This document shows, in pieces, positions 9,168 through 25,378 of a DNA stretch of 64,000 bases (position 1 is the stretch's first letter; every line of letters begins with the position of its first letter). Source of the DNA: an uncultured bacterium (lineage in GTDB: Bacteria > Bacillota > Clostridia > Lachnospirales > Lachnospiraceae); NCBI GenBank assembly GCA_947381965.1, contig CANCXX010000022.1, positions 1 to 64,000 of the forward strand, given 5' to 3'. Position numbers and translations under genes: made by a program. The notes under the pieces are model-generated. The model was given only the letters and a program-made list of their open reading frames with translations. It did no database searches and was not told the DNA's origin.

Positions 9168-10352
9168 TTACAATGCCAGACGGTATATTTCTTCCATATC
9201 ATCCTGACACAGTATTTTTGCTGATCCTTTCTGCCCTCCGCAGGCCTTTGCACATCGCACAGCCATTTCGTGAATCTGTCTGTCCGTTGGTGTTACACCT
9301 AATTCTTTCATATTTACCGGCATACCAATAGAATGGTAAAATTCCTCCATTGCAGCAATCCCTTTCAGGGCAATTTCTTCGTCTGTCCCTTCCGGGTCTA
9401 CCTGCATAACATTTACCGCATAGCGGACAAACCGCGGCAAGGCATTTTTGTAGACATATTTTGCCCATGAAGGCCACACTGCTGCCAGCCCTGCGCCGTG
9501 TGTTACGTCAAACATGCCGCCGATCTCATGCTCCAGCATATGGGTGGCAAAATCGCCCCCAGCGTTTCCGCATCCGGTTAGATTGTTGTGGGCCAGAGAG
9601 CCGGCCCACATCACCTCGGCCCTTGCGTCATAATCCTGGGGATTGGCGTGCAGAATTTTTGCATTTGTCATTACCGTGCGTAGCAATCCTTCCGCAATGG
9701 AATCGGTGATTTCCATATTTCCACCGTTGGTAAAATAGCGTTCCATCGTGTGCATCATAATATCTGTACAGCCGCTTTGGGTCTGGTAATCGGAAAGCTC
9801 AATGGTCAGCGCAGGGTTCATGATTGCAAATTTAGGCCGTGCCAGATTGTCATCATAGGCCCGTTTTTCTTTTGTTTCCTCATTTGTGATCACCGCCCCC
9901 ATGCTGGTTTCGCTGCCAGCCGCTGCAATGGTCAGGACAGACGCCACAGGCAGGCATTTTTCTGCTGTGCGGGTATGTTCAAAAAGCGTCCATACATCCT
10001 TGTCCTTTTCTGCAAGGCCATAGGCAACTGCCTTTGCGGTATCAATGACAGAACCGCCGCCTACAGCCAGTATAAAATCTGCCTGCATTTTTTTCCCCAG
10101 CTCAATCCCTTCATAAACTTTGGAAAGGCGTGGATTGGGAACAACGCCCCCTAACAGTTCATAAGCCAGCTCTTCCTCTTTCATGGATGCCCTTATCTCA
10201 TCCATCAGGCCATTTTTTAAGACACGATTACTTCCGTGTATGACCAATACTTTTGTCCCGCCGTGCTTTTTGATATATTTTCCTGTTGAACACTGGGCTC
10301 CTTTTCCAAAGATTACCTCCGTAGGCGAATAAAAGTTAAAATTGTTTACCAT
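9168..10352 (-). CDS. Iron-containing (butanol-type) alcohol dehydrogenase
   Basis: A 394-residue NAD(P)H-dependent alcohol/aldehyde oxidoreductase of the YqhD/BdhA type. The coenzyme loop GGGSVIDTAK is at 98-107 and the metal ligands are in place: D197, H201, H271 and H285. The start is ATG 10350-10352 (MVNNFNFYSPTEVIFG), with AAGGAG 8 bases upstream; the frame is open further out but that extension is hydrophobic and unlike the family. It probably reduces aldehydes to alcohols in fermentation. The divergently placed AraC-type regulator is its likely controller. Confidence 0.92.
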   Translation of the reverse strand: MVNNFNFYSPTEVIFGKGAQCSTGKYIKKHGGTKVLVIHGSNRVLKNGLMDEIRASMKEEELAYELLGGVVPNPRLSKVYEGIELGKKMQADFILAVGGGSVIDTAKAVAYGLAEKDKDVWTLFEHTRTAEKCLPVASVLTIAAAGSETSMGAVITNEETKEKRAYDDNLARPKFAIMNPALTIELSDYQTQSGCTDIMMHTMERYFTNGGNMEITDSIAEGLLRTVMTNAKILHANPQDYDARAEVMWAGSLAHNNLTGCGNAGGDFATHMLEHEIGGMFDVTHGAGLAAVWPSWAKYVYKNALPRFVRYAVNVMQVDPEGTDEEIALKGIAAMEEFYHSIGMPVNMKELGVTPTDRQIHEMAVRCAKACGGQKGSAKILCQDDMEEIYRLAL

Positions 10353-10529
10353 AATAGCAGCTCCTTTTTTTGATGATAGATGGATTATATCAAAAAGAAC
10401 AGATTGAAAATATGAATTTGGAGACATATAATATAAATATAAAGACAAAATAGAGAATATTTTTATAATAAATTTGACCTTTGGGACTGCCAAAGAAGTC
10501 CTGCCATAATCCTATCGGAGGACAAACGG

Positions 10530-11414
10530 ATGAATTACTCGTTTATACAGGATGAAAACGCTGTTGAACAGATTGACGGGATTACATATGAATTCCCATA
10601 CACCATGCACGAAAGGGATTTAACCAGTTATACGATTCCCTGGCATTGGCATGAGGAACTGGAATTTAATTATGCGTATAAAGGTTCCATTATCATTGAG
10701 ACGGTAAATCGCACATATACTGTCCGGCAGAGCGAGGCTTATTTTATCAATACGAATATAATGAACACAAAACGAAAAGCAAAAGGGGCGTCTGTTGCAG
10801 TTGAACACGCCCATCTGTTTCATCCCATCCTGCTTGCAGGACATTACCGCAGTATTTTTGAAACAAAATACCTGAATCCTGTCCTTCAGAATCAATCCAT
10901 TGAGGTTATGGTCATTAAAGAAGATACGGAAAGCGGAAAGGAATTTTTGGAACTTTTACACTGCTTAACCAGGCTGCGCAAAACAGAAAATTCAGAGTTC
11001 CAGGTACGAAATCTGTTATCGCAGGCATGGCTGGTGCTGGTGAAAGAAATAGGCCTGCAGCGGCAAAAAAACAGCCTTCAGGCTGCTTATACCCATGAGC
11101 GCACCAGGGATATTTTAAGTTTTATTCACAAGCATTATCAGGACAATATAACGGTTGCCAATATCTCTGAACATGCCAACATCAGTCCCAAAGAATGTAT
11201 CCGCTCATTTAAGAATACCTTTCATCAGACTCCTATGGACTATCTCATTCATTACCGGATCGAGCAGGCAAAACGGCTTTTGCGGGAAACAGATGAATCT
11301 ATCACAAATATAGCGTTTATGACAGGCTTTCATAACAGTGCTTATTTTGGTAAAATGTTTAAAAAATTGGCTGGAATGACGCCAAGGGAATTCCGGCAGG
11401 AACATAAAAAATAA
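10530..11414 (+). CDS. AraC-family transcriptional regulator with cupin sensor
   Basis: A 294-residue regulator: an N-terminal cupin-like effector domain (IPWHWHEELEFNYAYKG) and a C-terminal double helix-turn-helix of the AraC/XylS family (residues about 190-292, with ANISPKECIRSFK and the closing GFHNSAYFGKMFKKLAGMTP signature). CGGAGG precedes ATG 10530. It is divergent from the alcohol dehydrogenase gene with 177 bases between the starts, which is the usual layout of a local activator and its target. The effector is unknown; HWH-x-E-type cupins in this family commonly bind small metabolites. Confidence 0.9.
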   Translation: MNYSFIQDENAVEQIDGITYEFPYTMHERDLTSYTIPWHWHEELEFNYAYKGSIIIETVNRTYTVRQSEAYFINTNIMNTKRKAKGASVAVEHAHLFHPILLAGHYRSIFETKYLNPVLQNQSIEVMVIKEDTESGKEFLELLHCLTRLRKTENSEFQVRNLLSQAWLVLVKEIGLQRQKNSLQAAYTHERTRDILSFIHKHYQDNITVANISEHANISPKECIRSFKNTFHQTPMDYLIHYRIEQAKRLLRETDESITNIAFMTGFHNSAYFGKMFKKLAGMTPREFRQEHKK

Positions 11415-11460
11415 TTAGGAGTATTTTATAGGCTGTATGATTAAAGGGGATTAAACTAAT

Positions 11461-11943
11461 ATGAAAAAATTAGGTGGAGAAGCTATCTTTAAAAGAACGG
11501 ATGGTAAGGATAAAGATTTTATAGAAAATTGCAGACTTCTTGATAGGGATTTAGACTTACGTGTTGGAAAAAAAATAAAAAGAGATAAATACAAAAAATA
11601 TAATCAGCTGGATGAAATTAAAGAAGCAATAGTTGTCTATGCAGATAATAAGGTGGTTGGCGGTGGAGCTATAAGAAGATATGATGATGAAAATATAGAA
11701 TTAAAACGAGTGTTTGTACATAACGAATATCAGGGACAGGGTTTAGGAAGCAGACTGGTTTCTCTGTTAATAGAGTGGGCTATGGAATTGGGATATAAAA
11801 GAATGGTTCTTGAAACTGGGGAGTTATTAGTTGAATCCTGTGCCGTATATAAAAAATTGGGTTTTAAAGAAATTCCAGGTTATGGTCCATATGCGGATAT
11901 GCCAGAATCATTATGTATGGCAAAGGATTTGAACAGCAGATAA
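11461..11943 (+). CDS. GNAT-family N-acetyltransferase
   Basis: A 160-residue GNAT enzyme that transfers an acyl group from acetyl-CoA. The core is visible: [10 protein letters not shown] strand, [21 protein letters not shown] containing the pyrophosphate-binding Q-x-x-G-x-G loop, then the [13 protein letters not shown] closing segment. Substrate cannot be read from the sequence. It follows the AraC regulator on the same strand and precedes a methyltransferase, with lower G+C than the enzyme genes around it, so it may be a recent arrival. Confidence 0.88.
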
Positions 11944-12013
11944 AATATGTTAGGAAGAGATTGGAACAGCAGATAAAGGCTGGAATACGAGTGGGGAATT
12001 GTCGGAGGTGCGC

Positions 12014-12703
12014 ATGAACTTTATCAATACAATAGAAGATTTATATAATATGCTTGACAAGTATACGGAAGGAGTTGATTGGAACACTTTTTATGCTAAG
12101 AGGGACAAACCGGCTCCTTTTTTAAAATATAATAAACTGCCAGATAAATGTGTGGTTGATTTCATAAAAGAGCATAATATCAGAAATGCCTGTGAATTTG
12201 GTTGCGGGGAGGGAAGAAATGCCATTTTTCTGGCTAAAAATAATGTGTATACAGAAGCATATGACTTATCAGAAATTGCAATAGAAAATGCAAAGAGAAT
12301 CGCAAGAGAAAGCAGGGCGGAAAAAGTTGTCTTTAAGGCAGGAAATATTTTTGAGTTGGATTTAAGGGATAAGAAGTTTGATTTGATAATAGACAGTGGT
12401 ATTTTTCATCATTTGACACCACACAGACGTTTGCAATATAGAGATATGGTATCAGAAATATTGGCAGATAATGGATATTTTATTTTGCTGTGTTTCGCGG
12501 CAGGAGAAGATGGTGCGGATGAAGTGGATGATTATGAGTTTTACAAGTGCAGACAAACAGGAACAGCATTTACCAGAGAAAGGTTGAAGGAATTTTGGAA
12601 ATTGAAATTTGACATTAAAGAACTCCGTAAGGGAGAGAATGTTGTAGAAGCCCGGATGTGGGAGAGTGAATTTTTGTACATATGTGTGTTAAAAAAGGCT
12701 TAG
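12014..12703 (+). CDS. Class I SAM-dependent methyltransferase
   Basis: A 229-residue Rossmann-fold methyltransferase. Motif I is CEFGCGEGRNAIFLAK, with an acidic end-of-strand residue in AYDLSEIAI and the motif IV strand FDLIIDSGIFHHLTP, typical of small-molecule methylases of the Methyltransf_11/25 type (related to TehB-like enzymes). ATG 12014 is preferred over the TTG at 11999 because TCGGAGG lies directly before it. The substrate is unknown. It sits between GNAT and HAD genes without an obvious pathway connection. Confidence 0.88.
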   Translation: MNFINTIEDLYNMLDKYTEGVDWNTFYAKRDKPAPFLKYNKLPDKCVVDFIKEHNIRNACEFGCGEGRNAIFLAKNNVYTEAYDLSEIAIENAKRIARESRAEKVVFKAGNIFELDLRDKKFDLIIDSGIFHHLTPHRRLQYRDMVSEILADNGYFILLCFAAGEDGADEVDDYEFYKCRQTGTAFTRERLKEFWKLKFDIKELRKGENVVEARMWESEFLYICVLKKA

Positions 12704-12739
12704 CGGCTTCCTGTTTAATGTGGCGAGAAGGAGAAGAAA

Positions 12740-13651
12740 GTGTTAATGGAAAAAATATTATATGTAACTGATTTAGATGGAACGCTGTTAAACAGAAATG
12801 ACAGGATTAATTCTGAAAGTATAAAAATTATCAATTATTTGGTGAAAAATGGGATGGTTTTTACTTATGCCACTGCAAGGTCGCTGGTATCTGCCAGTGT
12901 GGTTACAAGAGGGCTGTCACTGGACAATCCTGTTATCATCTATAACGGCGCATTTATTATCCGGCCGGATACAGGGGAGGTATTGGCAAAAGAGAGATTT
13001 GAGGAAGAAGAAATGGATCAGGTTCAATCCGTCCTTGAAAAGCAGAATATCAGTCCGTTAGTGTATTCTTTTATAAATGGTGTGGAGAAAGTATCTTGGA
13101 ATACAGAAAAAGAGAATGATGGAGTGAAGCGGTACATTGGCCTAAAAAAGGGGGACAGGCGGATGAATCCCATTAAAGGAGACACAAAAGCGCTGTACCA
13201 GGGGGATATGTTTTACTTTACCTGTATTGGTGAAAAAGAGGAACTCCTGCCGGTATACGATATTTTTTCAAAAGACAGCCGGTATCGCTGCACCATCCAG
13301 CAGGAATTGTACAGACCGGAATACTGGTGTGAAATTATGCCCGCAAAAGCCACCAAAGCAAATGCCATAGAAAAGCTAAAGGAAATGCTGGGCTGCACGA
13401 AAGTCATTTCTTTTGGGGATGCTGTTAATGATATTCCCATGTTTCAGATATCAGACGAGGCCTATGCAGTGGAAAACGCAGTGGAAGAGCTGAAGGCACA
13501 TGCAACGGGGATAATTGGCAGTAATATAAATGATGGTGTGGCAAGATGGCTGGAAGAACATGTTATTTTACATGCTGACAAAAAAGAGCGATACCAGACT
13601 GCAGAAGCTGAATCAGCTAAAAGTGAGCTGAATCAAAAAACAAAAAAATAA
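12740..13651 (+). CDS. Cof-type HAD-superfamily phosphatase
   Basis: A 303-residue haloacid-dehalogenase-type hydrolase of the Cof/YbjI subfamily (C2B cap). Motif I with the nucleophile Asp is VTDLDGTLL, the conserved Lys of motif III lies in MPAKATKANAIEKL, and motif IV is ISFGDAVNDIPMF. Such enzymes remove phosphate from sugar phosphates or cofactors. GTG 12740, six bases after AAGGAG, is taken as the start; ATG 12746 in the same frame is possible. The last 30 residues are rich in K/E/A and probably disordered. Confidence 0.9.
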   Translation: MLMEKILYVTDLDGTLLNRNDRINSESIKIINYLVKNGMVFTYATARSLVSASVVTRGLSLDNPVIIYNGAFIIRPDTGEVLAKERFEEEEMDQVQSVLEKQNISPLVYSFINGVEKVSWNTEKENDGVKRYIGLKKGDRRMNPIKGDTKALYQGDMFYFTCIGEKEELLPVYDIFSKDSRYRCTIQQELYRPEYWCEIMPAKATKANAIEKLKEMLGCTKVISFGDAVNDIPMFQISDEAYAVENAVEELKAHATGIIGSNINDGVARWLEEHVILHADKKERYQTAEAESAKSELNQKTKK

Positions 13652-13744
13652 AATTATTTTTATACGGAAGTTTACTATAAAATTGACATATATTATAATA
13701 AAGCTTCAAACGATGCAAAAGTCATTCTGTTAAGGGCGTGGAGC

Positions 13745-13922
13745 TAGAGCGTGTTTGAAAAATCATTTCCAACATCTGCACGCGGAAAACCGCGTCCCCA
13801 CATTTGCGTGATATTTGCGCCAAATTCAGGTTACATAGCCCGCTATGCGCCCTTCATTTGGCACAAATCTCCCACAAATTGTGACGCACATCTGCTGGGA
13901 AGCATTTTTCAAACACGCTCTA
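13745..13922. repeat. 178-bp palindromic element (MITE-like)
   Basis: Exact 19-bp inverted ends TAGAGCGTGTTTGAAAAAT (13745-13763 and its complement 13904-13922), with further hairpins inside: ACGCGG-AAAA-CCGCGT, and CATAGC-CC-GCTATG nested within CCAAAT...ATTTGG. GAGC occurs immediately outside both ends and may be a 4-bp target duplication. It fills the gap between the HAD gene and the transglutaminase gene and holds no believable gene. Confidence 0.75.
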
Positions 13923-13965
13923 GAGCTTGTTTTGCAGGCTGATAAACAGAAGAGGAGGAAGGAAA

Positions 13966-14775
13966 GTGGGAAAAAAGGTAAAAAGAGGTTTCGTAACAGT
14001 TTTCGCAGTCGCTGCTATTGCAGGTTCGTCACTGACGGTATATGGGGCACCGGTAGCTATGCCGGATGGAACCGTTTTCGACGCAGATTTTTATGGGGCA
14101 AGTAATCCGGATGTAGTGGCGGCTTATGGCACAGACGCAGCCGCACTTTATCAACATTATGTGGAACATGGAAGGGCGGAAGGAAGGAAACCGATGTCAG
14201 ATGCGGAGGCATCCTTAATAATTCCGACAGCAGATCGCAGCAGTCAAAAGAAAACTGGCGGAAACGTAAAGGATGTGATTAATTCTGCAGTTTTAGTGCC
14301 GGTATGGTCAGGTTCAAAGGAAGTAAACGATATAATTGAACACATATTTGCACAGATTATTACGGAAGAAATGACAACCTATGACAAAGTGAAGGCCTGC
14401 TATGACTGGCTGATTATGAATACGGAATATGGCATAAGCGACAACTGGGGCGTATGGATGTCCGGGAATATGACTTTTGAAGATTTTATGGTATATGATG
14501 TTCTGACCAGTCATTATGGTGTTTGTGATCATTATTCTGCTGCATTTGCATATATGGTGAGGGCTATAGGACTGGACTGTCGTGTGCAGGGCGGTTTGAC
14601 CCATAAAGCGGATGGAGGTTATACGCCCCATGCGTGGACTGTAATTGTGATTGATGGCGCTACATATGTGTTTGACCCACAGGTGGAAGATAATATTTCA
14701 AGGGGAGGAACAATTGGGTATTATCGTTTTGGCAAGACCTATGGGGAAGTAGCTGATAAATACATAATAGAATAA
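13966..14775 (+). CDS. Secreted transglutaminase-like protein
   Basis: A 269-residue exported protein. GTG 13966 follows AGGAGGAAGG; the N-terminus MGKKVKRGF with a hydrophobic run to about residue 28 is a signal peptide. Residues 38-75 (FDADFYGASNPDVVAAYGTD to HYVEHGRAEGRKP) are a small repeat-type domain often seen in surface proteins of gut Lachnospiraceae. The C-terminal transglutaminase/protease-like domain has the full Cys-His-Asp triad: C187 in YGVCDHYS, H222 in PHAWTV and D237 in VFDPQ. It may cross-link or cleave peptides or proteins outside the cell. It is transcribed toward the radical SAM gene and is probably not part of that cluster. Confidence 0.85.
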   Translation: MGKKVKRGFVTVFAVAAIAGSSLTVYGAPVAMPDGTVFDADFYGASNPDVVAAYGTDAAALYQHYVEHGRAEGRKPMSDAEASLIIPTADRSSQKKTGGNVKDVINSAVLVPVWSGSKEVNDIIEHIFAQIITEEMTTYDKVKACYDWLIMNTEYGISDNWGVWMSGNMTFEDFMVYDVLTSHYGVCDHYSAAFAYMVRAIGLDCRVQGGLTHKADGGYTPHAWTVIVIDGATYVFDPQVEDNISRGGTIGYYRFGKTYGEVADKYIIE

Positions 14776-14829
14776 AGAAGAATTTTGGCATTTTTGTTTG
14801 GGTAATATAAAGTTGCTTTTTCAAGGATT

Positions 14830-14869
14830 AAGGTGCAAAACTTCCAAAGGGTCATTGGGTTTGCACCTT
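14830..14869. terminator. Hairpin between convergent genes
   Basis: AAGGTGCAAA (14830-14839) and TTTGCACCTT (14860-14869) form a 10-bp stem with an inner CCAA/TTGG pair. It lies between the convergent transglutaminase and radical SAM genes; no long T run is present on either side, so termination is likely but not certain. Confidence 0.5.
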
Positions 14870-14883
14870 ATCTGACAAAAGGC

Positions 14884-16311
14884 TTATAAAGAGCCAGTTT
14901 CCATTGCATGTAAATCTCTTGCAAATTCCTGCTGATTTCTGCCAGGCATGGAAGCGGCTTTTCTCATGTAGCGCAGGCTTTCACCGGTATCTCCCAGTCG
15001 GTAAAGGGCGTGAGCGTATCCTCTTAGGGCTTCCCGGCTGTCAGCATCCAGCTGCAGGGCTTTGGCGTTGGCTTCCCTGCACAGTTCATAATTACCGCAC
15101 ATGAATTCTGCATAGCCTTTGGCAAGCAGGGCATTTATATTTTCAGGTTCCAGCCTAAGGACCTGATCCAATGCGGCGGCGGCCTCCTGATGCGCCCCCT
15201 GTCTTATCATGCTGTCTGAGAGCAGGAATAATTCCTGTGGGTCTGAGATATTTTCATACTTTTTTTTCAGATTTTTTAATTCAAGGTTATAAGCACAGTA
15301 ACGGTTTTCAGAATAAATGCTTCCCTCCATGGTAAGCCGGGTATTGGGGCATCCTCCTAGACATTTACTGCTATAAGTACAGGTACGGCAGTCGCCGGAG
15401 AGCTGGTCTTTCGTTATTTTTCTGCGCCATGAAAAGCTGTTTTCATCTTCCCAGATATCCCGAAGACTGCGCTCTCTTATACTGCCTTCAATGTAGCTTC
15501 TTTCACGGATGGAGGTGCAGCCTAAGATCTCTCCGTTATGCAAAATTCCAAAGCCTCTGATGCCTGCATTGCAGCCATCCCAGATGGAAACCATATTTGT
15601 CTGGTAAGATAATCTTTTTATGGCAAGTTCTTTTTTGGTGTAATATCCGATACAGTCTGCCGGATAAATTTTAATTCTGCCTTCCTTGGCAGTATCATAG
15701 CAAAAGTCAATAATATCTTTTACTTTTTCAGGGGCAAGGAGCCAGTCAGGTTTGTCTTTCAGGTTTCCCATGGGCAGCCCAAGCTGTACCTGCCATGTGC
15801 TGACACCGATGCGTATCAGTTCTTCTTTTAATTCGTTTAGTATATGTACATTCTGGTTGGTAATTGTTGTTACCGCACCTGTTTTTATTCCCAGGCTTTT
15901 AAGCGTCAAAAAGGCTTTTTCGGCATGTTCAAAGGCGCCTTCTTTTCGGATCATGTTGTGGATCTCCCTGGTGCCGTCTATACTGATGGCCGCTGTGGAA
16001 ATACCGCTGTCTTTAAGAGCTTTTGCCATATTCTCATCCAGGAGCCAACCGTTTGTAATAATATTTACAGCAACCCCCTGACTGGTCAGGCGCTTTACCA
16101 GCATGGCAATGTCTTTTCTGGTTAGGGGCTCCCCGCCGGAGAGCGTAACCCACTTAAGTTTTAAGTCTGCAATCTGGTCACACAGATTCAGCGCCTCCTC
16201 GGTGGTAAGTTCGTCTGGCAGAGGCGTTTCACAGGAAGAACCACAATGGCCGCATCTCATATTACAGCCCATAGTCACTTCCCAGACGCAGGTAATTGGT
16301 TGATATTTCAT
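14884..16311 (-). CDS. Radical SAM/SPASM enzyme with C-terminal TPR, likely peptide maturase
   Basis: A 475-residue enzyme. C16, C20 and C23 (CNMRCGHC) bind the SAM-cleaving 4Fe-4S cluster, and LSGGEPL is the GGE motif that holds SAM. A SPASM region follows around residues 255-345 with the Cys series GC...DCRTC...KCLGGC...YC for auxiliary clusters, as in peptide-modifying maturases (for example ranthipeptide and sactipeptide enzymes). The last 120 residues form tetratricopeptide repeats (QEAAAALDQVLRLEPENINALLAKGYAEF and so on), probably for holding the substrate. Its partner should be the repeat protein encoded just upstream on the same strand. Ribosome site TAGGAG precedes ATG 16309-16311. 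Confidence 0.88.
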   Translation of the reverse strand: MKYQPITCVWEVTMGCNMRCGHCGSSCETPLPDELTTEEALNLCDQIADLKLKWVTLSGGEPLTRKDIAMLVKRLTSQGVAVNIITNGWLLDENMAKALKDSGISTAAISIDGTREIHNMIRKEGAFEHAEKAFLTLKSLGIKTGAVTTITNQNVHILNELKEELIRIGVSTWQVQLGLPMGNLKDKPDWLLAPEKVKDIIDFCYDTAKEGRIKIYPADCIGYYTKKELAIKRLSYQTNMVSIWDGCNAGIRGFGILHNGEILGCTSIRERSYIEGSIRERSLRDIWEDENSFSWRRKITKDQLSGDCRTCTYSSKCLGGCPNTRLTMEGSIYSENRYCAYNLELKNLKKKYENISDPQELFLLSDSMIRQGAHQEAAAALDQVLRLEPENINALLAKGYAEFMCGNYELCREANAKALQLDADSREALRGYAHALYRLGDTGESLRYMRKAASMPGRNQQEFARDLHAMETGSL

Positions 16312-16469
16312 ATATTCTCCTATTTAAAATTCCAGTTTCGCCTACACCCAGGCAGGCCGTCAAGCCATCCACAAAAAATGCCGTCGGTAAAATTGCCGGA
16401 TTTCTATGAGAGGCCTGTCTAGGCGGGGCTGTTTCAGGCTTCTGTTTATTCCCGCCAGCAACGGGGCTT

Positions 16470-17324
16470 TTATTTAGTCATTGGAAAAGCATATAAACGG
16501 GCCTCCTGGCCAGTGTATACCATACCATATGGACGGCTGTCCATGGTATAATCTGCGCAGGCGTTATTGGAATATACAAGTCCGTAGGGCATTGCCGCAA
16601 GGTCAGCAGCATAAGGAAGACCATATTCCATAACCGGATATCCATATTTAAGGGAGGCGTCATTTACACCGCAGGGGTATCCATATGCAAGTCTTGTATC
16701 GTTTACACCACAGGAGTACCCGTACTTAAGGTTCGCGTCGTTTACGCCGCAGGGATATCCATACTTAAGATTGGCATCATTTACGCCGCAAGGGTACCCA
16801 TATTTAAAGGCAGTATTTGTACTGCAGTCATTTTTGTGTATAAATGGAGTATTCTCCGGGCCCCAGGAATTGCGTCTTATGAAAGGGGTATTATCCACAC
16901 AGGGATATCCATATTTGAAAAGGGCGGCATTGTCACTGCATACAGGTGCCTGGTCCCCTGCATAGGTAATACCATATATGACTCCGGGAGCCGGGCCGTT
17001 TTCACTATAAGATACAAATTCATCTGAATTGCTGGGGACAATTTGGATTTCAGCCTTAAATTCGTCAGATACATCTGAAACATTTGACAGGCAGGCTAGT
17101 ACAAAATCAACCTCCACATTGATAGTTTCCGCTGACACAACTGAAAAATAAAAGCGCTGCAACATGGGAGAGATTCCCGGTCTTGTGTGGGTGTTCTGGG
17201 TCCCTGTAAGAAGAAGTTCCGCCGGCATGGATTTAAGACACCAGCCATAATTGGTAGACCCCAGCATTGACTGGAGCTCCACATAAAAAGATTTTCCCTG
17301 TAAAACAACTAATTTGTTACTCAT
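16470..17324 (-). CDS. Chagasin-like protein with C-x3-D repeats, candidate modified-peptide precursor
   Basis: A 284-residue protein with no signal peptide. Residues 1-98 look like a chagasin/I42-type beta domain (LGSTNYGW at 21-28 in place of NPTTGYxW). Residues 129-284 are repetitive. Four units of 13 residues carry C-G-V-N-D with Cys at 179, 192, 205 and 218 and Asp at 183, 196, 209 and 222, each preceded by a Y-G-Y-P/S; degenerate units hold C129, C142 and C167, and Y-G-L/M variants follow. C-x3-D is the spacing cross-linked by the radical SAM enzyme PapB in freyrasin. Next to a radical SAM/SPASM gene on the same strand, this suggests a precursor with a folded leader and many cores. A non-modified surface or scaffold protein is the alternative. 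AGAAAGGAG precedes the start. Confidence 0.7.
   Translation of the reverse strand: MSNKLVVLQGKSFYVELQSMLGSTNYGWCLKSMPAELLLTGTQNTHTRPGISPMLQRFYFSVVSAETINVEVDFVLACLSNVSDVSDEFKAEIQIVPSNSDEFVSYSENGPAPGVIYGITYAGDQAPVCSDNAALFKYGYPCVDNTPFIRRNSWGPENTPFIHKNDCSTNTAFKYGYPCGVNDANLKYGYPCGVNDANLKYGYSCGVNDTRLAYGYPCGVNDASLKYGYPVMEYGLPYAADLAAMPYGLVYSNNACADYTMDSRPYGMVYTGQEARLYAFPMTK
16680..16835 (-). repeat. 39-bp coding repeats of the C-x3-D protein
   Basis: Tandem 39-bp (13-codon) units within the precursor-like gene, nearly identical on the DNA level in the central copies (GGTGTAAATGATGCCAA and neighbours on the minus strand). The close identity of adjacent units suggests recent expansion by slippage or unequal recombination. 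Confidence 0.7.
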
Positions 17325-17354
17325 TTGTATGCTCCTTTCTGATTATGTTGTTTT

Positions 17355-17383
17355 TTTATATTTTTCAGACGGCTCTGGGACAA
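17355..17383 (-). promoter_or_regulatory. Promoter of the repeat-protein/radical SAM transcript
   Basis: On the minus strand TTGTCC (17378-17383), 17 bases, TATAAA (17355-17360), about 30 bases before the gene start. It probably drives both the repeat protein and the radical SAM enzyme. Confidence 0.55.
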
Positions 17384-17421
17384 GCGCCTGAATTCCATAT
17401 AAAATGTGTCTGTTACTATGC

Positions 17422-17471
17422 TACCATTTATGGCAGGATTTTCCATATTTTGACATCTAAACATACCATTT
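17422..17471. promoter_or_regulatory. Direct repeats, possible LytTR operator
   Basis: TACCATTT occurs at 17422-17429 and 17464-17471, 42 bases apart (four helical turns), 39 and 81 bases upstream of the minus-strand -35 box. LytTR regulators bind paired direct repeats upstream of target promoters, and the divergent gene encodes one. The link is inferred. Confidence 0.35.
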
Positions 17472-17483
17472 TGGCCGCCAATA

Positions 17484-17512
17484 TTGAAAATCGTTTTTTA
17501 AGGAATTATAAT
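17484..17512 (+). promoter_or_regulatory. Promoter of the LytTR/GHKL operon
   Basis: TTGAAA (17484-17489), 17 bases, TATAAT (17507-17512), about 40 bases before the regulator start. Divergent to the repeat-protein promoter. Confidence 0.65.
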
Positions 17513-17550
17513 GATTCATTACATTTTAGTACCAGGTGAGAGCGTTTTTT

Positions 17551-18297
17551 ATGAAGATAGCAATTGTTGAAGATTTAACAAAAGACAGTGACATTATAAC
17601 CGCACATTTAAACACTTATTTTTTAAACACATATGTGGGGGAGTTGCCGCTTATATATAATTTTAACAGTGGGGAAGAGTTTCTTCTCACATTTGCAAAA
17701 GATTCGTATGACATTATTTTTATTGACTATTACTTAAAATCTTTATCAGGGATGGATACGGCTTATTCCATCAGAAAAAAGGATCCTTTGGCTGTCATTG
17801 TGTTTGCCACTGCCAGCCGGGATTATGCGGTGGAGGGGTATAAGGTACAGGCGTCTGGGTATCTTGTAAAACCCATTTCTTATGAAGATATTGCAGAGTT
17901 TATGTCTGCTATTAACCTGAAAAAATTAAAAAAGCGACGTTTTATAGAAATTACAAGTGGCTATCAGACAATAAAAATTCCTTTGAGAGATATCGTATAT
18001 TGTGATATTTCCGGTCATTATGTACAAATACATACCAACACTTTCGGAATGCAGCGTTCCCGGATGTCGTTTTCGGAATTGAATCAGATGCTTGCTCCAT
18101 ATCCTGAATTTCTAATGTGTTACAGGGGCTGCATGATTAATATGAACCATGTGGAGCATATGAGCGACCTGACTTTTTTTATGGATTGTGGAGAGCGTAT
18201 TCCTTTTAGAAAGAAGGATCATAACGAGATTCTAAAGGTGTATTCGGAATTTTTGTTTCACAAGGTCAGGGAGGCGCCTGTGCGGAAAAGCAGGTAA
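17551..18297 (+). CDS. LytTR-family response regulator
   Basis: A 248-residue AgrA/VirR-type response regulator. Receiver domain: acidic pocket in IAIVEDLT, phosphoacceptor Asp in IIFIDYYLKSLSGMD, Thr/Ser switch FATAS and Lys in YLVKPIS. The C-terminal LytTR DNA-binding domain runs from about residue 130 (KRRFIEITSGYQTIKIPLRDIVYCDISGH) to 240. ATG 17551, ten bases after AGGTGAG, is chosen; GTG 17536 in frame is less likely. It is cotranscribed with the GHKL kinase 14 bases downstream and is divergent from the repeat-protein gene, so that gene is its probable target, as in Agr-type control of bacteriocins. Confidence 0.92.
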   Translation: MKIAIVEDLTKDSDIITAHLNTYFLNTYVGELPLIYNFNSGEEFLLTFAKDSYDIIFIDYYLKSLSGMDTAYSIRKKDPLAVIVFATASRDYAVEGYKVQASGYLVKPISYEDIAEFMSAINLKKLKKRRFIEITSGYQTIKIPLRDIVYCDISGHYVQIHTNTFGMQRSRMSFSELNQMLAPYPEFLMCYRGCMINMNHVEHMSDLTFFMDCGERIPFRKKDHNEILKVYSEFLFHKVREAPVRKSR

Positions 18298-18311
18298 ATG
18301 GGACAGGGAAC

Positions 18312-19637
18312 ATGGACTTTTTTCGGATAATGGAAATTATGCTTTATGTTTTAGTGGATTTATTCCCCAATCTGATTCTTGCAGTTGCTCCTTTCAGGGA
18401 CTCCCTGCGTTTTTCTGAAAAAACGACTGTGGCAGCTGCCATAGCGCTTTATATTTTTATGGTGTTAAGCCGTATTGTGGCTTTAAGAGGACTTTCCACT
18501 GCTGCATTTTTATCTATATTGTGGATAGCGCTTTATCTTGGCTATTATGTTATTTTTATCAAAGCGGAGTTAGCAAAACTTCTTTTTGTCCTTCTGACCA
18601 TTTTAAATTATGGAAGTTTTACAACAATTGTATTTAATTATTTTACTTGCCGTATATTTCCGCAGGCAGCGGAACGCCCATATTCTTTGTATATTTCCGC
18701 TGCCCTGATAATTGATTATCTGATCAGTTATCCGTTTGTTTACCGGATGCTTGGAAGGAAGCTGAGAAGTCTTATAGCTTTTCCTGAAAATAGCAGATAT
18801 TGGAGATTTCTATGGCTGGTACCGGCCACTTTCTGCCTTTCCTATTACTACAGTATGTATGCAAGCGGCGGAGTTATGTCGTTTTCCGTTAGCCGGAGCA
18901 ATATGCTTTTTGCAGTATTTTTTAATCTGGGAGCCCTTTTTGTTACCTATCTGGTGATGCACCTTTTGGAGGAAAGCAATGCAAGCATGAGACTAAAAGC
19001 AGAGAATTATCAGTTGGGAATGCAGTCAGTCCGATATGAAAATCTGAAAAAGCGTATGGATGACGCCAGAAGGGCAAAGCATGATTTAAGGCAGACGCTT
19101 GCCGTTATACAGGCATATGTGCAGCAGGATGATAAAGAAGCTCTGTTAAGCTACATGCAGAGCTATATTACTTCCCTGCCCCCGGATCTTCCCATTTCTT
19201 ATTGTGAAAATCAGGCGGTAAACGCCCTGATTGTTTACTATGGGGAGCTTGCCGGGGAGAACAATATTTCCTTTGAGGTTTGGGTGGAATATCCGGAAAA
19301 AATTGCAATTGCTGATGCGGACGCAGTAGTATTAATAGGAAATCTGCTGGAAAATGCGTTGGAGGCCTGTCAAAGAAAAGAAAAAGGCAAAGGCTTTATT
19401 GTTCTTCGTATACAGCCTGTGCAGGGAAGGCTTATTATTGTCATGGATAATTCCTGTTCCGGTCTGGTTCAGAAGAAAGGGGGAACATTTATCTCAGCCA
19501 AAACAGGACAGGAGGGCATTGGACTTTCTTCTGTCAGAAGAATTGCAGATAAATATCATGGCGTATTGACATTAGCATGTGAGGAAGAGGTGTTTCATGT
19601 GTCTGTAGGATTGGAAGGCGGCAGCGCGGAAAAGTAA
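18312..19637 (+). CDS. GHKL sensor histidine kinase (AgrC-like)
   Basis: A 441-residue membrane kinase. The first 220 residues hold about six hydrophobic segments, the sensor type that recognises peptides in Agr systems. A short coiled region then leads to the phosphoacceptor H257 in AKHDLRQ, and the ATP-binding domain has the N box NLLENALEAC and the glycine box GIGLSSV. It should phosphorylate the LytTR regulator encoded directly upstream. Nothing here encodes an obvious AgrD/AgrB pair, so the signal could be a peptide from the adjacent cluster or an outside ligand. Confidence 0.92.
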   Translation: MDFFRIMEIMLYVLVDLFPNLILAVAPFRDSLRFSEKTTVAAAIALYIFMVLSRIVALRGLSTAAFLSILWIALYLGYYVIFIKAELAKLLFVLLTILNYGSFTTIVFNYFTCRIFPQAAERPYSLYISAALIIDYLISYPFVYRMLGRKLRSLIAFPENSRYWRFLWLVPATFCLSYYYSMYASGGVMSFSVSRSNMLFAVFFNLGALFVTYLVMHLLEESNASMRLKAENYQLGMQSVRYENLKKRMDDARRAKHDLRQTLAVIQAYVQQDDKEALLSYMQSYITSLPPDLPISYCENQAVNALIVYYGELAGENNISFEVWVEYPEKIAIADADAVVLIGNLLENALEACQRKEKGKGFIVLRIQPVQGRLIIVMDNSCSGLVQKKGGTFISAKTGQEGIGLSSVRRIADKYHGVLTLACEEEVFHVSVGLEGGSAEK

Positions 19638-19680
19638 AAAATTGTATTGGTTGGACAGGGACTAAAACGGAGAGGTGAAT

Positions 19681-20592
19681 ATGAAAAAAGGTGATATTAT
19701 TATTTTTAAGGCAGAGGATTGCTGGTTTAGCAGGGCCATTGCCGTATTGTCGCATTCGGATGTGTGTCATGCGGCTATGGTGTATACGGAAGATTCTATT
19801 ACGGAAAATCTTGCCGATGGCGTTCAGGTAAACAGGGTTTCGGTTTCAGAGGGAGATGACGTTTATGTTCTGCGCCTTGCATCAGAACCGGACGCAGGCC
19901 CCTTGCTGTGTTGTGCGGACGCTTATTTGCAGAATAAAAACAAATATGATTTTCCAGGTCTGGTACTTTTGGGAGGCTTGCTGATTTACCGGTATATTGT
20001 GCCAACCCCAAAGATTCTAAAGATTGCGGATCATATCATTGACGCAGCTTGTCTGCAGCTGGATTTGATGATTCAGAATGCGCTGCATTATAAGGGAAGG
20101 GCAATGGTGTGCTCTCAGTATATTTATCAGATTTTTTATGATTGTGGAGAAGAATATAGAATTAATATTGCGGATGGTTGTCTGTGGAATGACGCCAATA
20201 GGACTCTTGAAGAAAATGCTTCGGGCAATATATGCCTGGCCCATTACCAGAAGGAAAATAGGAACATCTGCAATAGCTTTAGCAGTTTTTCGAACTGCCT
20301 TAAGGAAGGGGAAGAAGAAGCGCTTTATAAGGAATTGTGTATGGCGTTTTTAGAGGCAGAAGAAAATGGGCAGCAGGAAAACTGTCTAAAGGAGACGGAT
20401 GAGGATAAGGTGCAGAAACAGATCGCATCTGCAGCACAGAAGGCAGAGGGATTTTGCTCCCGTCTGAAGCATTTCCTGGAACTGATGAACTGTGATATGC
20501 CAGTGGATGCCATGTTTGTGACGCCTGGTGATATTTTAAATCATTCTACTAATTTAAAAAGAGTGGGGACGGTTTCCTTAAAGAGGGTTTAG
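19681..20592 (+). CDS. YiiX/NlpC-P60-like papain-fold hydrolase
   Basis: A 303-residue protein whose first 180 residues match the permuted papain-like YiiX/DUF830 fold: KKGDIIIFKAED at the start, H30 in SDVCHAAMVY as the catalytic His and C144 in AMVCSQYIYQIF as the nucleophile, the reverse His-then-Cys order of that fold. The remaining 120 residues are acidic and helical. ATG 19681 is preferred over GTG 19675 because of spacing to GGAGAGG. It lies 43 bases after the kinase gene and is probably in the same operon. It might process the repeat protein, or act on lipid or peptidoglycan amide bonds; the substrate is unknown. Confidence 0.75.
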   Translation: MKKGDIIIFKAEDCWFSRAIAVLSHSDVCHAAMVYTEDSITENLADGVQVNRVSVSEGDDVYVLRLASEPDAGPLLCCADAYLQNKNKYDFPGLVLLGGLLIYRYIVPTPKILKIADHIIDAACLQLDLMIQNALHYKGRAMVCSQYIYQIFYDCGEEYRINIADGCLWNDANRTLEENASGNICLAHYQKENRNICNSFSSFSNCLKEGEEEALYKELCMAFLEAEENGQQENCLKETDEDKVQKQIASAAQKAEGFCSRLKHFLELMNCDMPVDAMFVTPGDILNHSTNLKRVGTVSLKRV

Positions 20593-20734
20593 ATAACCAT
20601 AATTATATTTGGGCGATTAAACTGTTTTTATTACTATAAGAAAGGCATATTTAATATTTTCCTCTGAAAACAAAAGCACCGCCCAAGCTTTTATGTCATG
20701 TAAAAAACTCCTGTTAAGAAATGCAGGCTTAAAA

Positions 20735-20880
20735 GTTACTATTCACGGGTCAGGAATGCGCACTTGTTGCGCATTCCGTGAGAACATGATGCAGGAGTGA
20801 GGGGCGATTTTTGCGAAGCAAAACTTGGAATATCGCTCCGAATTGTTATTATGAGCGGCTCCCAGGCCGTGAATAGTAAC
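20735..20880. mobile_element. 146-bp MITE with 9-bp target duplication
   Basis: Terminal inverted repeats GTTACTATTCACGG (20735-20748) and its complement (20867-20880). GGCTTAAAA lies immediately outside both ends (20726-20734 and 20881-20889), an exact 9-bp target duplication. Inside is another hairpin (GGAATGCGCA...TGCGCATTCC). No coding capacity. A family different from the 217-bp element but with the same duplication length. Confidence 0.88.
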
Positions 20881-20918
20881 GGCTTAAAAACATTACTGAA
20901 ACGATAAAAGTGAAAAAC

Positions 20919-20947
20919 TTGACAAATAAACTTTTTAAGGCAATAAT
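20919..20947 (+). promoter_or_regulatory. Promoter of the Y RNA
   Basis: TTGACA (20919-20924), 17 bases, AATAAT (20942-20947). Predicted start near 20955, at the base of the Y RNA stem. Confidence 0.65.
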
Positions 20948-20955
20948 ATAGAGTA

Positions 20956-21102
20956 AATACCCCGATGCGCAGGGGACGGTTACTTCGACTATAGGATCGC
21001 GTTGTTGTGGGTTCGAGTCCCATCTGCCGCGGCTTGATGCGGCAGTAGCTCAATGGGTAGAGCACGATATATACCGTTTCCGCTTTTTCTTGGGGTATTT
21101 TT
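20956..21102 (+). ncRNA. YrlA-type Y RNA with tRNA-like module
   Basis: A stable stem joins the ends: AATACCCC (20956-20963) with GGGGTATT (21092-21099) followed by T's, then GGGGACGGT (20972-20980) with ACCGTTTCC (21073-21081). Inside is a tRNA-like module in changed order: T arm GTGGG-TTCGAGT-CCCAT (21007-21023), acceptor strand CTGCCGC (21024-21030), an 8-base loop, the other acceptor strand GCGGCAG (21039-21045), then the D arm GCTC-AATGGGTA-GAGC (21048-21063). This is the architecture of bacterial YrlA Y RNAs, which bind Ro60/Rsr through the end stem and mimic tRNA with the module. The Rsr gene follows on the same strand. A real tRNA is excluded: no anticodon loop, and the 3' half precedes the 5' half. 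Confidence 0.85.
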
Positions 21103-21130
21103 AGTACGTAAAGCAATCATGAACGTTTTC

Positions 21131-21291
21131 TTAAGGAATAGTCGCAAAATAACTTGTGCAGATGACGCTGGATAAATTTCCATAGGCCAGGCGGAAGAAG
21201 GAGCCGTAGTGGGCTACGGAGACTGATGACAACAACGGCTATGGAAATTTAGACAAGTCAGATACACAAGTTATTTCAAGACTGTTCCTAA
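21131..21291. repeat. About 160-bp inverted-repeat element between Y RNA and rsr
   Basis: Imperfect terminal inverted repeats of about 53 bp: the left end starts TTAAGGAATAGTC and the right end's complement TTAGGAACAGTC; both share AAATAACTTGTG and end in TAAATTTCCATAG. No target duplication was seen. It is MITE-like, contains no gene, and ends six bases before the rsr ribosome site, so it separates the Y RNA from rsr. Confidence 0.7.
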
Positions 21292-21309
21292 CAGGTGGAG
21301 GCGATAAAA

Positions 21310-22944
21310 TTGAGCCGTTTTCGGGATGTACTGGATTATGCCGGAAAGAGTGATATAGTAATGAACTTTATGGGCGGTGAATCCTATCAGATAGGACCGC
21401 TTCAAACGCTTAAAATGATTACAGCATCTTCTATATTTGGAGAACCTTCCTATTACCGCAGCGGCGGGCTGGGAGGAAGAACGAAAGACGCCAGGTATCA
21501 AAGCTGCAGGCTGCTGGATGGCTGCCTGCTTTTTGCGGACGAATGGGATGGGCGCACCACCACTGAAATTATGGAAGCGGCTATAGATGAGGCGCTTTTA
21601 GCAGACTTTGAGGGAACGTTAAATTGGGCAGTTACGCTCAGACAGGATTTTTTAATGCGTCTGAATCCTCAGGTAATTATGGTAAGGGCGGCGCTGCATC
21701 CTGACAGGGAAATATTTACCCGGAAAAATCCGGGGATGTTTGGCAAAATCCAGCAGCAGGTTATGATAAGGGGGGATGATGCCTTATCGCAGCTGGCTTA
21801 TTTTTTGTATATTAATCATGGAAAACAGAATATGCCCAGCATATTGAAACGCTCTCTTGCAAGAGCGCTGGAGGGGCTGGATGCTTATGAAGCCGCCAAG
21901 TATAAAAATGCGGAAATAGGTCTTAGGGACGCAGTACGCATTACCCATGCCCATTCGCCTGTTATTGATGAATTTATGGGGGCAGAGGGTATTTGTCTGC
22001 CAGATGCAAAGAAAACATGGGAGAATCTTCGTTCAGAAGGAATGAAATGGAAGGACATTTTTTACCAGATTCCTATGGGGCATATGGCGCTTCTGAGAAA
22101 TATCCGGGGAGTGTTTAGCGAAAAGGGAGAGGTCAGGTTTGCAAAAGACTATCTGGACAGGTTAAAAGGCGGGGTGGCGAAGGGCAGGCAGTTTCCCTTC
22201 CGTTATTACAGCGCTTACCAGATGGTGGAAAAAAGTGAATGCGCCCATAAGCCCTGGATTTTAGATACGCTGGAAGAGTGCATGGATTTGTCTATGAAGA
22301 ACCTGCCCAGGTTTAAAGGAAAAACTATGTGCTTATCGGATAATTCCGGTTCAGCGTGGGGAACAGTCCCATCAGAATACGGAACGGTCCGGGTGGCGGA
22401 AATTGATAATCTATCTTCTGTAATTGGCGCAGCCGCATCGGAAGAAGGATACGTGGGAAAGTTTGGCGACCGGTTAAAAGTGTTCCCTGTCTCCAGCCGG
22501 GGGCAGATTTTGCGTCAATGCAGGGAGATAAGCCAAAATGGACATGCAGATGTAGGGGGAGCGACAGAAGGCGGTATTTGGGAGTTCTTTTATCATGCAA
22601 TTGAAAAGAAGGAGCGCTGGGACCAGATTTTCATTTATTCTGACCAGCAGGCAGGACACGGCGGACTATATGGAACCAGCGAACAGCAGAAAAAATATCA
22701 GGCGCTGGGGTTTTGCTGTGCACCCGGTAAACGGGGCAGGGGTACATACATTAATGTTTTTGATTTGATACTTGCATACAGGCGGCAGGTCAATCCGGAC
22801 GTAAATGTCTTTTCCATACAGACAGCAGGCTACAATAATGTCTGCATCCCGGAATATGCTTATCGTACCTGTATTTTGTATGGATGGACAGGAAGGGAGC
22901 TATCATTTGCCAGGCAGATGATTGATTTGTGGGATAAAATGTAG
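21310..22944 (+). CDS. rsr: Bacterial Ro60 orthologue (TROVE + von Willebrand A)
   Basis: A 544-residue ring-shaped RNA-binding protein. The TROVE part (about 1-335) has the HEAT-like helical pattern with MALLRNIRGV near 259-268. The von Willebrand A part (about 338-540) has a full metal site: D344-x-S346-x-S348, T419 and D445. Ro60 binds misfolded RNA ends in its central hole and Y RNAs on its outside; in bacteria Rsr works with exoribonucleases such as PNPase in rRNA and tRNA quality control. TTG 21310 is chosen: GGAGG is 8 bases upstream, while GTG 21295 overlaps that site. The Y RNA at 20956-21102 is its natural partner. Confidence 0.92.
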   Translation: MSRFRDVLDYAGKSDIVMNFMGGESYQIGPLQTLKMITASSIFGEPSYYRSGGLGGRTKDARYQSCRLLDGCLLFADEWDGRTTTEIMEAAIDEALLADFEGTLNWAVTLRQDFLMRLNPQVIMVRAALHPDREIFTRKNPGMFGKIQQQVMIRGDDALSQLAYFLYINHGKQNMPSILKRSLARALEGLDAYEAAKYKNAEIGLRDAVRITHAHSPVIDEFMGAEGICLPDAKKTWENLRSEGMKWKDIFYQIPMGHMALLRNIRGVFSEKGEVRFAKDYLDRLKGGVAKGRQFPFRYYSAYQMVEKSECAHKPWILDTLEECMDLSMKNLPRFKGKTMCLSDNSGSAWGTVPSEYGTVRVAEIDNLSSVIGAAASEEGYVGKFGDRLKVFPVSSRGQILRQCREISQNGHADVGGATEGGIWEFFYHAIEKKERWDQIFIYSDQQAGHGGLYGTSEQQKKYQALGFCCAPGKRGRGTYINVFDLILAYRRQVNPDVNVFSIQTAGYNNVCIPEYAYRTCILYGWTGRELSFARQMIDLWDKM

Positions 22945-23015
22945 GTGCATGGAAATCAACTTTCAAAGATAACTGAGAGATATTTTAAAGGAAGGACGCA
23001 CAGGAGACTGTGGAA

Positions 23016-23044
23016 TTGCAAACCCAGGTATTTTAATTTATAAT
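23016..23044 (+). promoter_or_regulatory. Promoter of the aconitase-family hydratase gene
   Basis: TTGCAA (23016-23021), 17 bases, TATAAT (23039-23044), 46 bases before the start codon. Confidence 0.6.
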
Positions 23045-23089
23045 AGAGATTACAGTGTTGAAAATATACCCCATGAGGAGGAAAGTTAT

Positions 23090-25378
23090 ATGATATCAGT
23101 GTTTGAAGGCGGCGCTTATCTGGTAAACGGCACAGAAGTTATTCCGGAGGGCGGGCAGGCTCTTGCAGAAGTAGGGGCTAAAACGGGAAAAGAGATTACA
23201 AAGGAAGAGGCCCGGCAGCAGACAATTGCCTATAATATTTTAAAGGAACATAATACATCAGGCAGCATGGACAAGCTGAAAATCAAGTTTGACAAGCTGA
23301 CTTCCCATGATATTACTTTTGTGGGCATTATTCAGACAGCAAGGGCGTCCGGACTGGAAAAATTCCCAGTGCCTTATGTGCTGACCAACTGTCATAATTC
23401 TTTGTGTGCAGTAGGTGGAACCATTAATGAAGATGACCATATGTTTGGTCTGTCCTGTGCGAAAAGATATGGCGGTGTTTATGTACCCCCTCACCAGGCG
23501 GTTATCCATCAGTTTGCAAGGGAAATGCTTGCAGGAGGCGGGAAAATGATTTTAGGCTCTGATTCCCATACCCGTTATGGCGCTCTTGGCACTATGGCCA
23601 TGGGTGAGGGAGGCCCGGAGCTGGTAAAACAGCTGTTAAACCAGACTTATGATATTAATATGCCCGGTGTGGTTGGCGTATATCTGACCGGGGAGCCGGT
23701 AAAAGGCGTAGGGCCTCAGGACGTTGCCCTTGCCATAATCGGAGAAGTTTTTGCCAGTGGATATGTAAAAAATAAAGTGATGGAATTTGTAGGTCCCGGT
23801 GTGTCTGCTTTAAGCGCCGACTTTAGAATTGGGATTGATGTTATGACTACAGAAACCACCTGTTTATCTTCTATCTGGCGGACGGATGATGTAATTAAAG
23901 AATTTTATGATATTCATGGAAGAAAAGAAGAATATAAGGAATTGAACCCAGGGCAGGCTGCTTACTATGATGGTATGATTACCATAGACCTGGGCGCCAT
24001 TAAACCTATGATTGCCATGCCGTTCCATCCAAGCAATACTTATACCATTGATGAACTGAATGCAAACCTGATGGATATTCTGGATGATGTGGAGAAAAAG
24101 GCGGCAGTTTCTTTAGACGGGGCAGTGGACTTTACCCTGAAAAACAAGGTGAAGAATGGCAAGCTTTTGGTGGATCAGGGAATTATTGCAGGCTGTGCGG
24201 GAGGCGGATTTGAAAATATCTGTGCGGCAGCGGATATTATGAAAGGAACTTATATTGGTTCAGACGGTTTTACCTTAAGCGTATATCCGGCCTCCATGCC
24301 TGTTTATATGGAACTGATTAAAAACGGCTGTGCGGCAACGCTGCTTGAAACGGGGGCTGTTATGAAAACAGCATTCTGCGGCCCATGCTTTGGGGCGGGA
24401 GATACGCCGGCAAACAATGCGTTCAGTATCCGCCACTCCACCAGAAATTTCCCTAACAGGGAAGGATCCAAACTGCAAAATGGACAAATTTCTTCTGTTG
24501 CCCTTATGGACGCTCGTTCTATTGCGGCAACTGCGGCCAACAAAGGCGTGCTTACTGCCGCTACGGAGTTTGATGGGCCGGTGAACAAATACCAGTATCA
24601 TTTTGATGCCAATATTTATGCAAACAGGGTGTTTGACGCCAAAGGGGTGGCAGATCCTGCTGTAGAAATCCAGTTTGGCCCCAATATTAAGGACTGGCCG
24701 GCAATGACAGCGTTGCCGGAGAATCTGGTTCTGCGTGTTGTGTCGGAAATCCACGACCCGGTAACAACTACCGACGAACTGATCCCTTCCGGTGAAACAT
24801 CCTCTTACCGTTCCAATCCGCTGGGACTTGCTGAGTTTACTTTATCCAGAAAGGACCCTGCTTATGTGGGACTTGCCAAGGACATTCAGGCTGCCCAGAA
24901 AGCAATAATGGAAGGAAAATGTCCTGTGGAAGAAAAACCGGAGCTGAAGCCGGTGATGGATGTGATTAAAGAGAGCTATCCGGAAACAGGAAAAGGAAAT
25001 GTGGGATTTGGATCCACTATCTTTGCGGTAAAGCCTGGCGATGGCTCTGCAAGAGAACAGGCCGCGTCCTGTCAGAAAGTGTTGGGCGGATGGGCAAATA
25101 TTGCAAATGAATATGCAACCAAGAGATACCGTTCCAACCTGATTAACTGGGGGATGCTTCCATTTTTAATTGAGGAAGGGGAGCTTCCATTTAAAAACAA
25201 AGATTATCTTTTCCTGCCCGGAATCCGAAAAGCGGTGGAAGAGAAATCGGATGTAATTAAAGCATATAAGGTAGGGGAAAAGGAACTTACGGAATTTACC
25301 CTGCGGCTGGGAGAGATGACAGACGAGGAAAGGCAGATTATATTAAAAGGATGTCTGATCAACTATAACAGAGTATAA
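23090..25378 (+). CDS. Aconitase-family hydratase (YbhJ-like)
   Basis: A 762-residue 4Fe-4S (de)hydratase. Aconitase landmarks: [37 protein letters not shown], the [10 protein letters not shown] segment and the [14 protein letters not shown] cluster loop, followed by the swivel domain with [15 protein letters not shown] and ATAANKG. It is closest in layout to the YbhJ-type hydratase branch rather than to AcnA or AcnB. It may serve as this organism's aconitase or hydrate a related di/tricarboxylate; no TCA or leucine-pathway genes adjoin it. A single-gene transcript is bounded by its promoter and the strong terminator at 25388. Confidence 0.9.

Follow-up and report, generated by a model that had tools for sequence, protein, structure and literature searches.

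A candidate two-gene protein-splicing module with a chagasin-like carrier in a Lachnospiraceae genome

In the 64,000-nucleotide stretch of contig CANCXX010000022.1 analysed here (uncultured Lachnospiraceae bacterium, assembly GCA_947381965.1; the whole stretch is referred to as the window), a gene for a 475-residue, splicease-like radical SAM/SPASM/TPR enzyme (positions 14884-16311, minus strand) lies directly behind a gene on the same strand for a 284-residue protein (16470-17324), with a gap of about 160 bp between them. In this second protein the first 109 or so residues make up a chagasin-like domain, and a 175-residue tail with ten X-Tyr-Gly sites follows; the pairing recurs in many genomes. 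Judging from the sequences, we put at roughly two in three the probability that the two genes form a protein-splicing module, in which a TPR-fused, splicease-like enzyme lacking a PlpY partner acts on the chagasin-like protein at up to ten sites. The initial annotation of this DNA had described a regulated, multi-site radical SAM modification system with a chagasin-type carrier. That outline is supported: the genes described are present, and the precursor and enzyme pair is kept in relatives.

Tyr-Gly pairs number 11 in the window protein, and all but one lie in the tail; the mean after shuffling is 2.2, and none of 20,000 shuffles reached 11. The initial annotation did not mention this signal, which is stronger than that of the four C-x3-D units on which it was built (reached in 18 of 20,000 shuffles). 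The ten tail sites (Tyr 117, 138, 175, 188, 201, 214, 227, 234, 247, and 266; 16524-16979, minus strand) place an X-Tyr-Gly core in a precursor adjacent to the enzyme, as in spliceotides. Residue X is Lys at five sites, Pro at two, and Ile, Ala, and Glu at one each, and five of the ten read K-Y-G-Y.

A genome collection was scanned with an alignment of the enzyme, which gave 92 encoded relatives, and the best 80 of the 92 were kept as loci; L015/L017, L026/L028, L046/L058, and L042/L044 are near-copies. Searching the 80 loci with a profile of the N-terminal domain brought up a partner protein in 40. The partner is encoded on the same strand and starts 0.5-1.35 kb upstream of the enzyme in 36 cases, the exceptions being L042 and L044 (2-3 kb upstream) and L046 and L058 (just downstream). 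By eye, within 1.5-3.5 kb beside the enzyme, 40 loci were classed as chagasin-type, 33 as having another X-Y-G or X-Y-A candidate, one as having a PLYDIPP candidate (L078), and six as having none, with the proviso that a single YG in a short open reading frame (ORF) can arise by chance. YG-rich ORFs made up 53 of the 1420 nearby same-strand ORFs (51 of the 80 loci), compared with 2 of 1943 on the opposite strand and 1 of 912 at a distance. Three of these were judged not to be precursors, namely a TetR-like ORF (L018), a second, overlapping piece (L022), and an out-of-frame overlap (L062), and without them 50 YG-rich ORFs in 50 loci remained. Chance enrichment of YG was rejected on these controls and on the shuffles.

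Repeat proteins standing without a radical SAM gene were looked for by precursor-led searches of 299 genomes of the family and 391 of the class. The initial annotation would have been refuted had such proteins turned up regularly, which was not the case: all six genomes with a strong match, the window's own included, have an adjoining enzyme gene. The five relatives look like loci L028, L031, L038, L049, and L086, and only the direction of the search is independent. Marginal matches without an enzyme occurred in genomes G147 (E 2e-4) and G522 (E 7e-4). The system is rare, being found in about 0.5-1% of the genomes searched.

In a set of 41 precursors, which includes near-copies and one precursor with a run of unknown residues counted as is, 352 Tyr-Gly units are spread over 37 tails. 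Position -1 is Lys in 68% of the units, +2 is Tyr or Phe in 80%, and +3 is Pro in 72%, and the constant element of the family tails is X-Y-G-(Y/F)-P. Splice tags described in PMC10533398, PIRPGYGLPI and the like with GYGLPI or LYGLPI, carry the same Y-G-hydrophobic-P arrangement. A second tail motif, [EQT]-P-F-[ILFV], occurs in 19 copies in 11 of the 41 precursors, with 0.22 expected from shuffles; it is present at residues 145-165 of the window protein, in L031 (six copies of QPFLRN), L014, L019, and L090, and in others. Tyr motifs in which Ala or Met replaces Gly (KYAAP, KYMAP, MMYAVRPP) stand beside enzymes of the same family in L055, L056, L057, L062, L076, and L080, the first three belonging to Desulfoluna and a Desulfobacterales metagenome-assembled genome. 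These forms are natural variation of the X-Y-G rule.

The enzyme has Radical_SAM (7e-26) and SPASM (5e-8) domains and TPR matches between residues 359 and 455. Its best NCBIfam match is TIGR04103 (221.8 bits, cut-off 725), followed by TIGR03913 (203 bits), and among nine family enzymes scanned the best match was TIGR04103 in seven and TIGR03913 in two. We take TIGR04103 to be the same entry as IPR026482. The latter is assigned to PlpX in PMC11002830. In Nostoc, an enzyme whose annotation is the family name of TIGR04103 (nif11-class peptide radical SAM maturase 3) stands between a Nif11 precursor ending in ALYGLPPELF and a 71-residue ORF in the position of PlpY. Relatives 42-47% identical to the window enzyme adjoin short precursors such as LTDEELMEMTGG...PLYGIDPIAQPLYG, and these short peptides have GG or NHLP-type leaders and PLYGI, AYGVRPP, or MYAVRPP cores.

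In a tree of 82 enzymes, built by a quick search with Shimodaira-Hasegawa-like approximate likelihood-ratio support only, the window enzyme forms its own branch apart from the Nostoc enzyme and the maturases of GDL-motif peptides. L087, L089, and L092 were omitted as too short and L044 by choice, and the position of L020 is a long-branch artefact. Chagasin-type loci appear in at least three places, with short X-Y-G branches among them, and this distribution needs four changes, three of which are forced by well-supported branches. Short-peptide systems lying between chagasin-type branches argue for one chemistry throughout. A short Agathobacter/Blautia branch (L103, L084) shows only one MYGTG-type candidate. 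The second radical SAM gene of genome G189 (L100:6085-7823, minus strand) sits on a long branch apart from the window family and adjoins the gene of a small protein that contains VYAGP motifs and ends in a zinc-ribbon-like part; this may be a further Tyr-motif system.

The closest described system is PlpXY of Pleurocapsa, which carries out tyramine splicing at X-Y-G with a loss of 135.08 Da per site. It shares with the window the X-Y-G-hydrophobic-P core, the presence of several sites, the adjacent gene pair, and a radical SAM/SPASM enzyme related through TIGR04103. In contrast to PlpXY, the window has a chagasin-like carrier in place of a Nif11/NHLP leader, ten sites of which half have Lys as X, an enzyme with a C-terminal TPR region and no adjoining PlpY-like gene, and a divergent LytTR/GHKL pair, and the enzyme falls below the family cut-off. 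GDL-motif (DUF1843) peptides are linked through TIGR03913, the enzyme's second-best family, and each of the six peptides read has YG, YA, or YM close to its start; they differ in being short peptides with a GDL motif. Such peptides with YG, YA, or YM stand in L104 and L105 beside radical SAM enzymes 48% identical to the Nostoc maturase, and this Tyr motif may be a target of the GDL maturases as well.

The chemistry originally proposed for the window was of the ranthipeptide type, with the enzyme linking Cys to an Asp three positions further along, in the manner of PapB in freyrasin, to give four thioether rings. The units themselves are real: four 13-residue repeats of the form [KA]-Y-G-Y-[PS]-C-G-V-N-D-x-x-x (16650-16805, minus strand) place CGVND at residues 179, 192, 205, and 218. 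Cys occupies +4 in 202 of the 352 family units (57%), at least one in-register C-x3-D unit is found in 27 of 41 precursors, and the enzyme matches the PapB model NF047865 at 7e-19. As in freyrasin, then, Cys and Asp recur three apart beside a radical SAM/SPASM enzyme. However, the spacing is in register in only 111 of the 352 units and is not family-wide; L038, L042, L046, and L058 have no in-register copy (L038 has one out of register), although the enzymes of the first three are 56, 54, and 52% identical to that of the window. Several short precursors beside related enzymes, e.g., L061, L066, and L091, have no Cys by eye, the PapB score is 68.1 bits against a cut-off of 340, and the carrier here is protein-sized. 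C-x3-D was rejected as the defining motif on the count across the 41 precursors, and we regard thioether formation of this kind as very improbable. Because the Tyr motif is near-constant and C-x3-D is found in only part of the units, the Cys-Asp pair is best read as a local elaboration and the Tyr-centred motif as the signature of the family. Another radical reaction at the X-Y-G Tyr, for instance cyclophane formation or crosslinking to Lys, Pro, or Cys, would fit the separate branch of the enzyme, the Cys at +4, and the replacement of Gly by Ala or Met in some relatives. The closeness of X-Y-G-hydrophobic-P to known splice sites and the TIGR04103 match favor splicing over such reactions, which we consider unlikely.

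A further alternative concerns the fate of the product and is compatible with splicing: modified units would be cut from the tail as small keto-peptides by the papain-fold hydrolase or another protease, leaving the chagasin domain as a mere leader. The hydrolase gene (19681-20592, plus strand) encodes a putative permuted papain-fold, YaeF-like protein. Its homologues occur in 10 of the 80 loci (36-49% identity). The papain fold assigned initially is a tentative assignment: H30, E42, and C144 are invariant in ten aligned sequences (the window and nine of ten relatives), the match to the YaeF model NF008552 is weak (29.3 bits, cut-off 279), and no Pfam model matches. Its description as the system's own candidate protease is unproven, since no homologue was seen in 25 of the 35 chagasin-type loci with 5 kb of upstream sequence; the protein may serve in processing, be a target, or do neither. 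Units are near-regular (13 residues) in the window, which speaks for release, but irregularly spaced in many relatives. Short precursors, for example in L061, L063, and L091, are accompanied by ATP-binding cassette (ABC) proteins about 725 residues long that bear a DCGAAC motif near the N-terminus and presumably resemble C39-peptidase transporters, but none of that size was found in the flanks of chagasin loci. On balance we think release of the units unlikely.

Several observations weigh against splicing, or against an inhibitory product, and are gathered here. The enzyme lies far below the TIGR04103 cut-off. A PlpY-like partner was sought with the Nostoc 71-residue ORF across the 80 loci, but no match was significant (best E 1.2), and the gap of about 160 bp is all that lies between precursor and enzyme genes in the window. 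No candidate precursor was found near the enzyme in L020, L054, L059, L081, L082, and L092. Cys at +4 is unexplained by splicing alone, and Gly is not absolute: in the four of 41 tails without YG, three from Desulfobacterales read KYAAP/KYATP and one from Anaerobacterium reads KYMAP. Published tags were spliced at only some insertion sites, according to PMC10533398, and therefore not every X-Y-G need react. The RPW-type loop of true chagasins is degraded in the window's branch, and no C1 papain-type peptidase was found in the window's own assembly at E 0.001. Finally, the window enzyme is 34% identical to the Nostoc enzyme, whereas the latter is 48% identical to GDL-peptide maturases. Because of this last point we propose that the window enzyme works like a splicease and claim likeness to the PlpXY subgroup, not membership of it.

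The chagasin-like domain (residues 1-109; 16998-17324, minus strand) is visible as a predicted I42-type domain through its relatives only. When 36 aligned N-terminal domains were compared with the Pfam model PF09394 (Inhibitor_I42), 14 matched at E up to 1 (best 1e-14), and the full-length relatives L053, L055, and L062 score above the model's cut-off and L079 below. The chagasin-type domain named in the initial annotation is seen in these relatives, but the window's own domain has no PF09394 match. A profile of the N-terminal domain matched no solved structure at E up to 1, and PF09394 found nothing in the window's assembly. The GST-x-YGW and RPW-type loops are presumably those of chagasin; the former is kept, and an RPW-like loop occurs only in deeper branches, e.g., L062 and L053. 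Compared with chagasin/I42 inhibitors, whose profile family takes in the domains of those 14 relatives at E up to 1, the window copy lies below detection, has lost the RPW-type loop, and carries a long X-Y-G tail.

If splicing takes place, the enzyme would cut tyrosine pieces out at up to ten X-Y-G sites and leave reactive keto groups, giving a protein with up to ten ketoamide groups on a protease-inhibitor-like domain. Most probably the product carries several alpha-ketoamides, many of them adjacent to Lys-type side chains: half of the window's ketoamides would have Lys on their N-terminal side, and the two Pro sites are the most doubtful. It would probably stay in the cell, because no signal peptide was seen by eye in the window precursor and no large peptidase-transporter gene recurs in the flanks. 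Spliceotides are called protease inhibitors in PMC11117315. The most economical idea, we infer, is that joining the sites to an inhibitor-like domain yields a multi-site inhibitor of serine or cysteine proteases. A C1 papain target was rejected, none being found in the own assembly at E 0.001; the assembly has one C11 peptidase. It is a tentative possibility that the locus makes a natural beta-amino-acid protein in which a chagasin-type inhibitor bears up to ten ketoamide warheads, many of them with a Lys side chain, and that a two-component system has it produced on demand.

Divergently from the precursor gene, the window encodes an AgrA-like response regulator with clear Response_reg and LytTR domains (17551-18297, plus strand) and an AgrC-like GHKL sensor kinase with a clear domain match (18312-19637, plus strand). 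Together they form an AgrAC-like two-component set, in agreement with the initial annotation. Regulator homologues (40-62% identity) occur in 12 of the 80 loci and kinase homologues (39-58%) in 13, in the same divergent order, which, with the hydrolase in 10, bears out the order first described; weaker matches to either protein in L038 and L085 (22-27%) were not counted. When the count is limited to the 35 chagasin loci whose flanks reach 5 kb upstream, the regulator is found in 11 loci, the kinase in 12, and the hydrolase in 10.

The pattern GYCRNA-N15-GYCR, with half-sites 21 bp apart, is found in all 13 homologous divergent intergenic regions, including the window (17451-17475, minus strand; first base 151 bp upstream of the precursor start). 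The 13 regions that served to derive the pattern are also those used for the count; after dinucleotide shuffling (300 rounds), it occurred in 0.05 regions on average and in one at most. In 12 of the 13 regions a TA-x-x-[AT]-T box starts exactly 27 bp beyond the second half-site, reading TATAAT in nine and TAGCAT in the window. Because this -10-like box lies at a fixed distance, the candidate operator is probably an activator site next to the precursor promoter. The LytTR/GHKL pair likely controls the module through this site and would switch it on from there.

On the other side of the cluster, a transglutaminase-core protein with a signal-peptide-like start adjoins it (13951-14775, plus strand), with no conserved association across the 80 loci (one short weak match). 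No structured RNA reached gathering scores in positions 10,000-24,000.

A 2022 review states that natural spliceotides had yet to be isolated and that their biological role was unknown (PMC8868522). If the proposal holds, a beta-amino-acid inhibitor protein would give spliceotides such a role, and the combination of an inhibitor-like domain, many predicted ketoamide sites, and a dedicated switch and operator makes that role directly testable. Our literature search, which did not extend to the main splicease survey, found no paper joining chagasin with radical SAM and ribosomally synthesized and post-translationally modified peptides (RiPPs), and papers on chagasin with "ripp" were about parasites. 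The title of Scott 2022 (Chem 8:2659) reportedly mentions peptides and proteins, so chagasin-type precursors may already be listed there, and this precursor form may already be in print; PMC10533398 attributes 939 predicted systems to the same group.

Three related loci carry other carriers, all with YGFP motifs: predicted substrates with SLH domains in L041 (4198-4983) and L043 (4032-4976) and with a dockerin in L045 (4406-5005). Their sequences suggest spliced cell-surface proteins and, with the family as a whole, spliced proteins, beyond peptides, in gut and rumen bacteria. Should splicing be confirmed, the relatives would widen its range, both in sites (X-Y-A and X-Y-M) and in carriers (SLH and dockerin proteins). 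The SLH protein of L041 has a signal-peptide-like N-terminus by eye.

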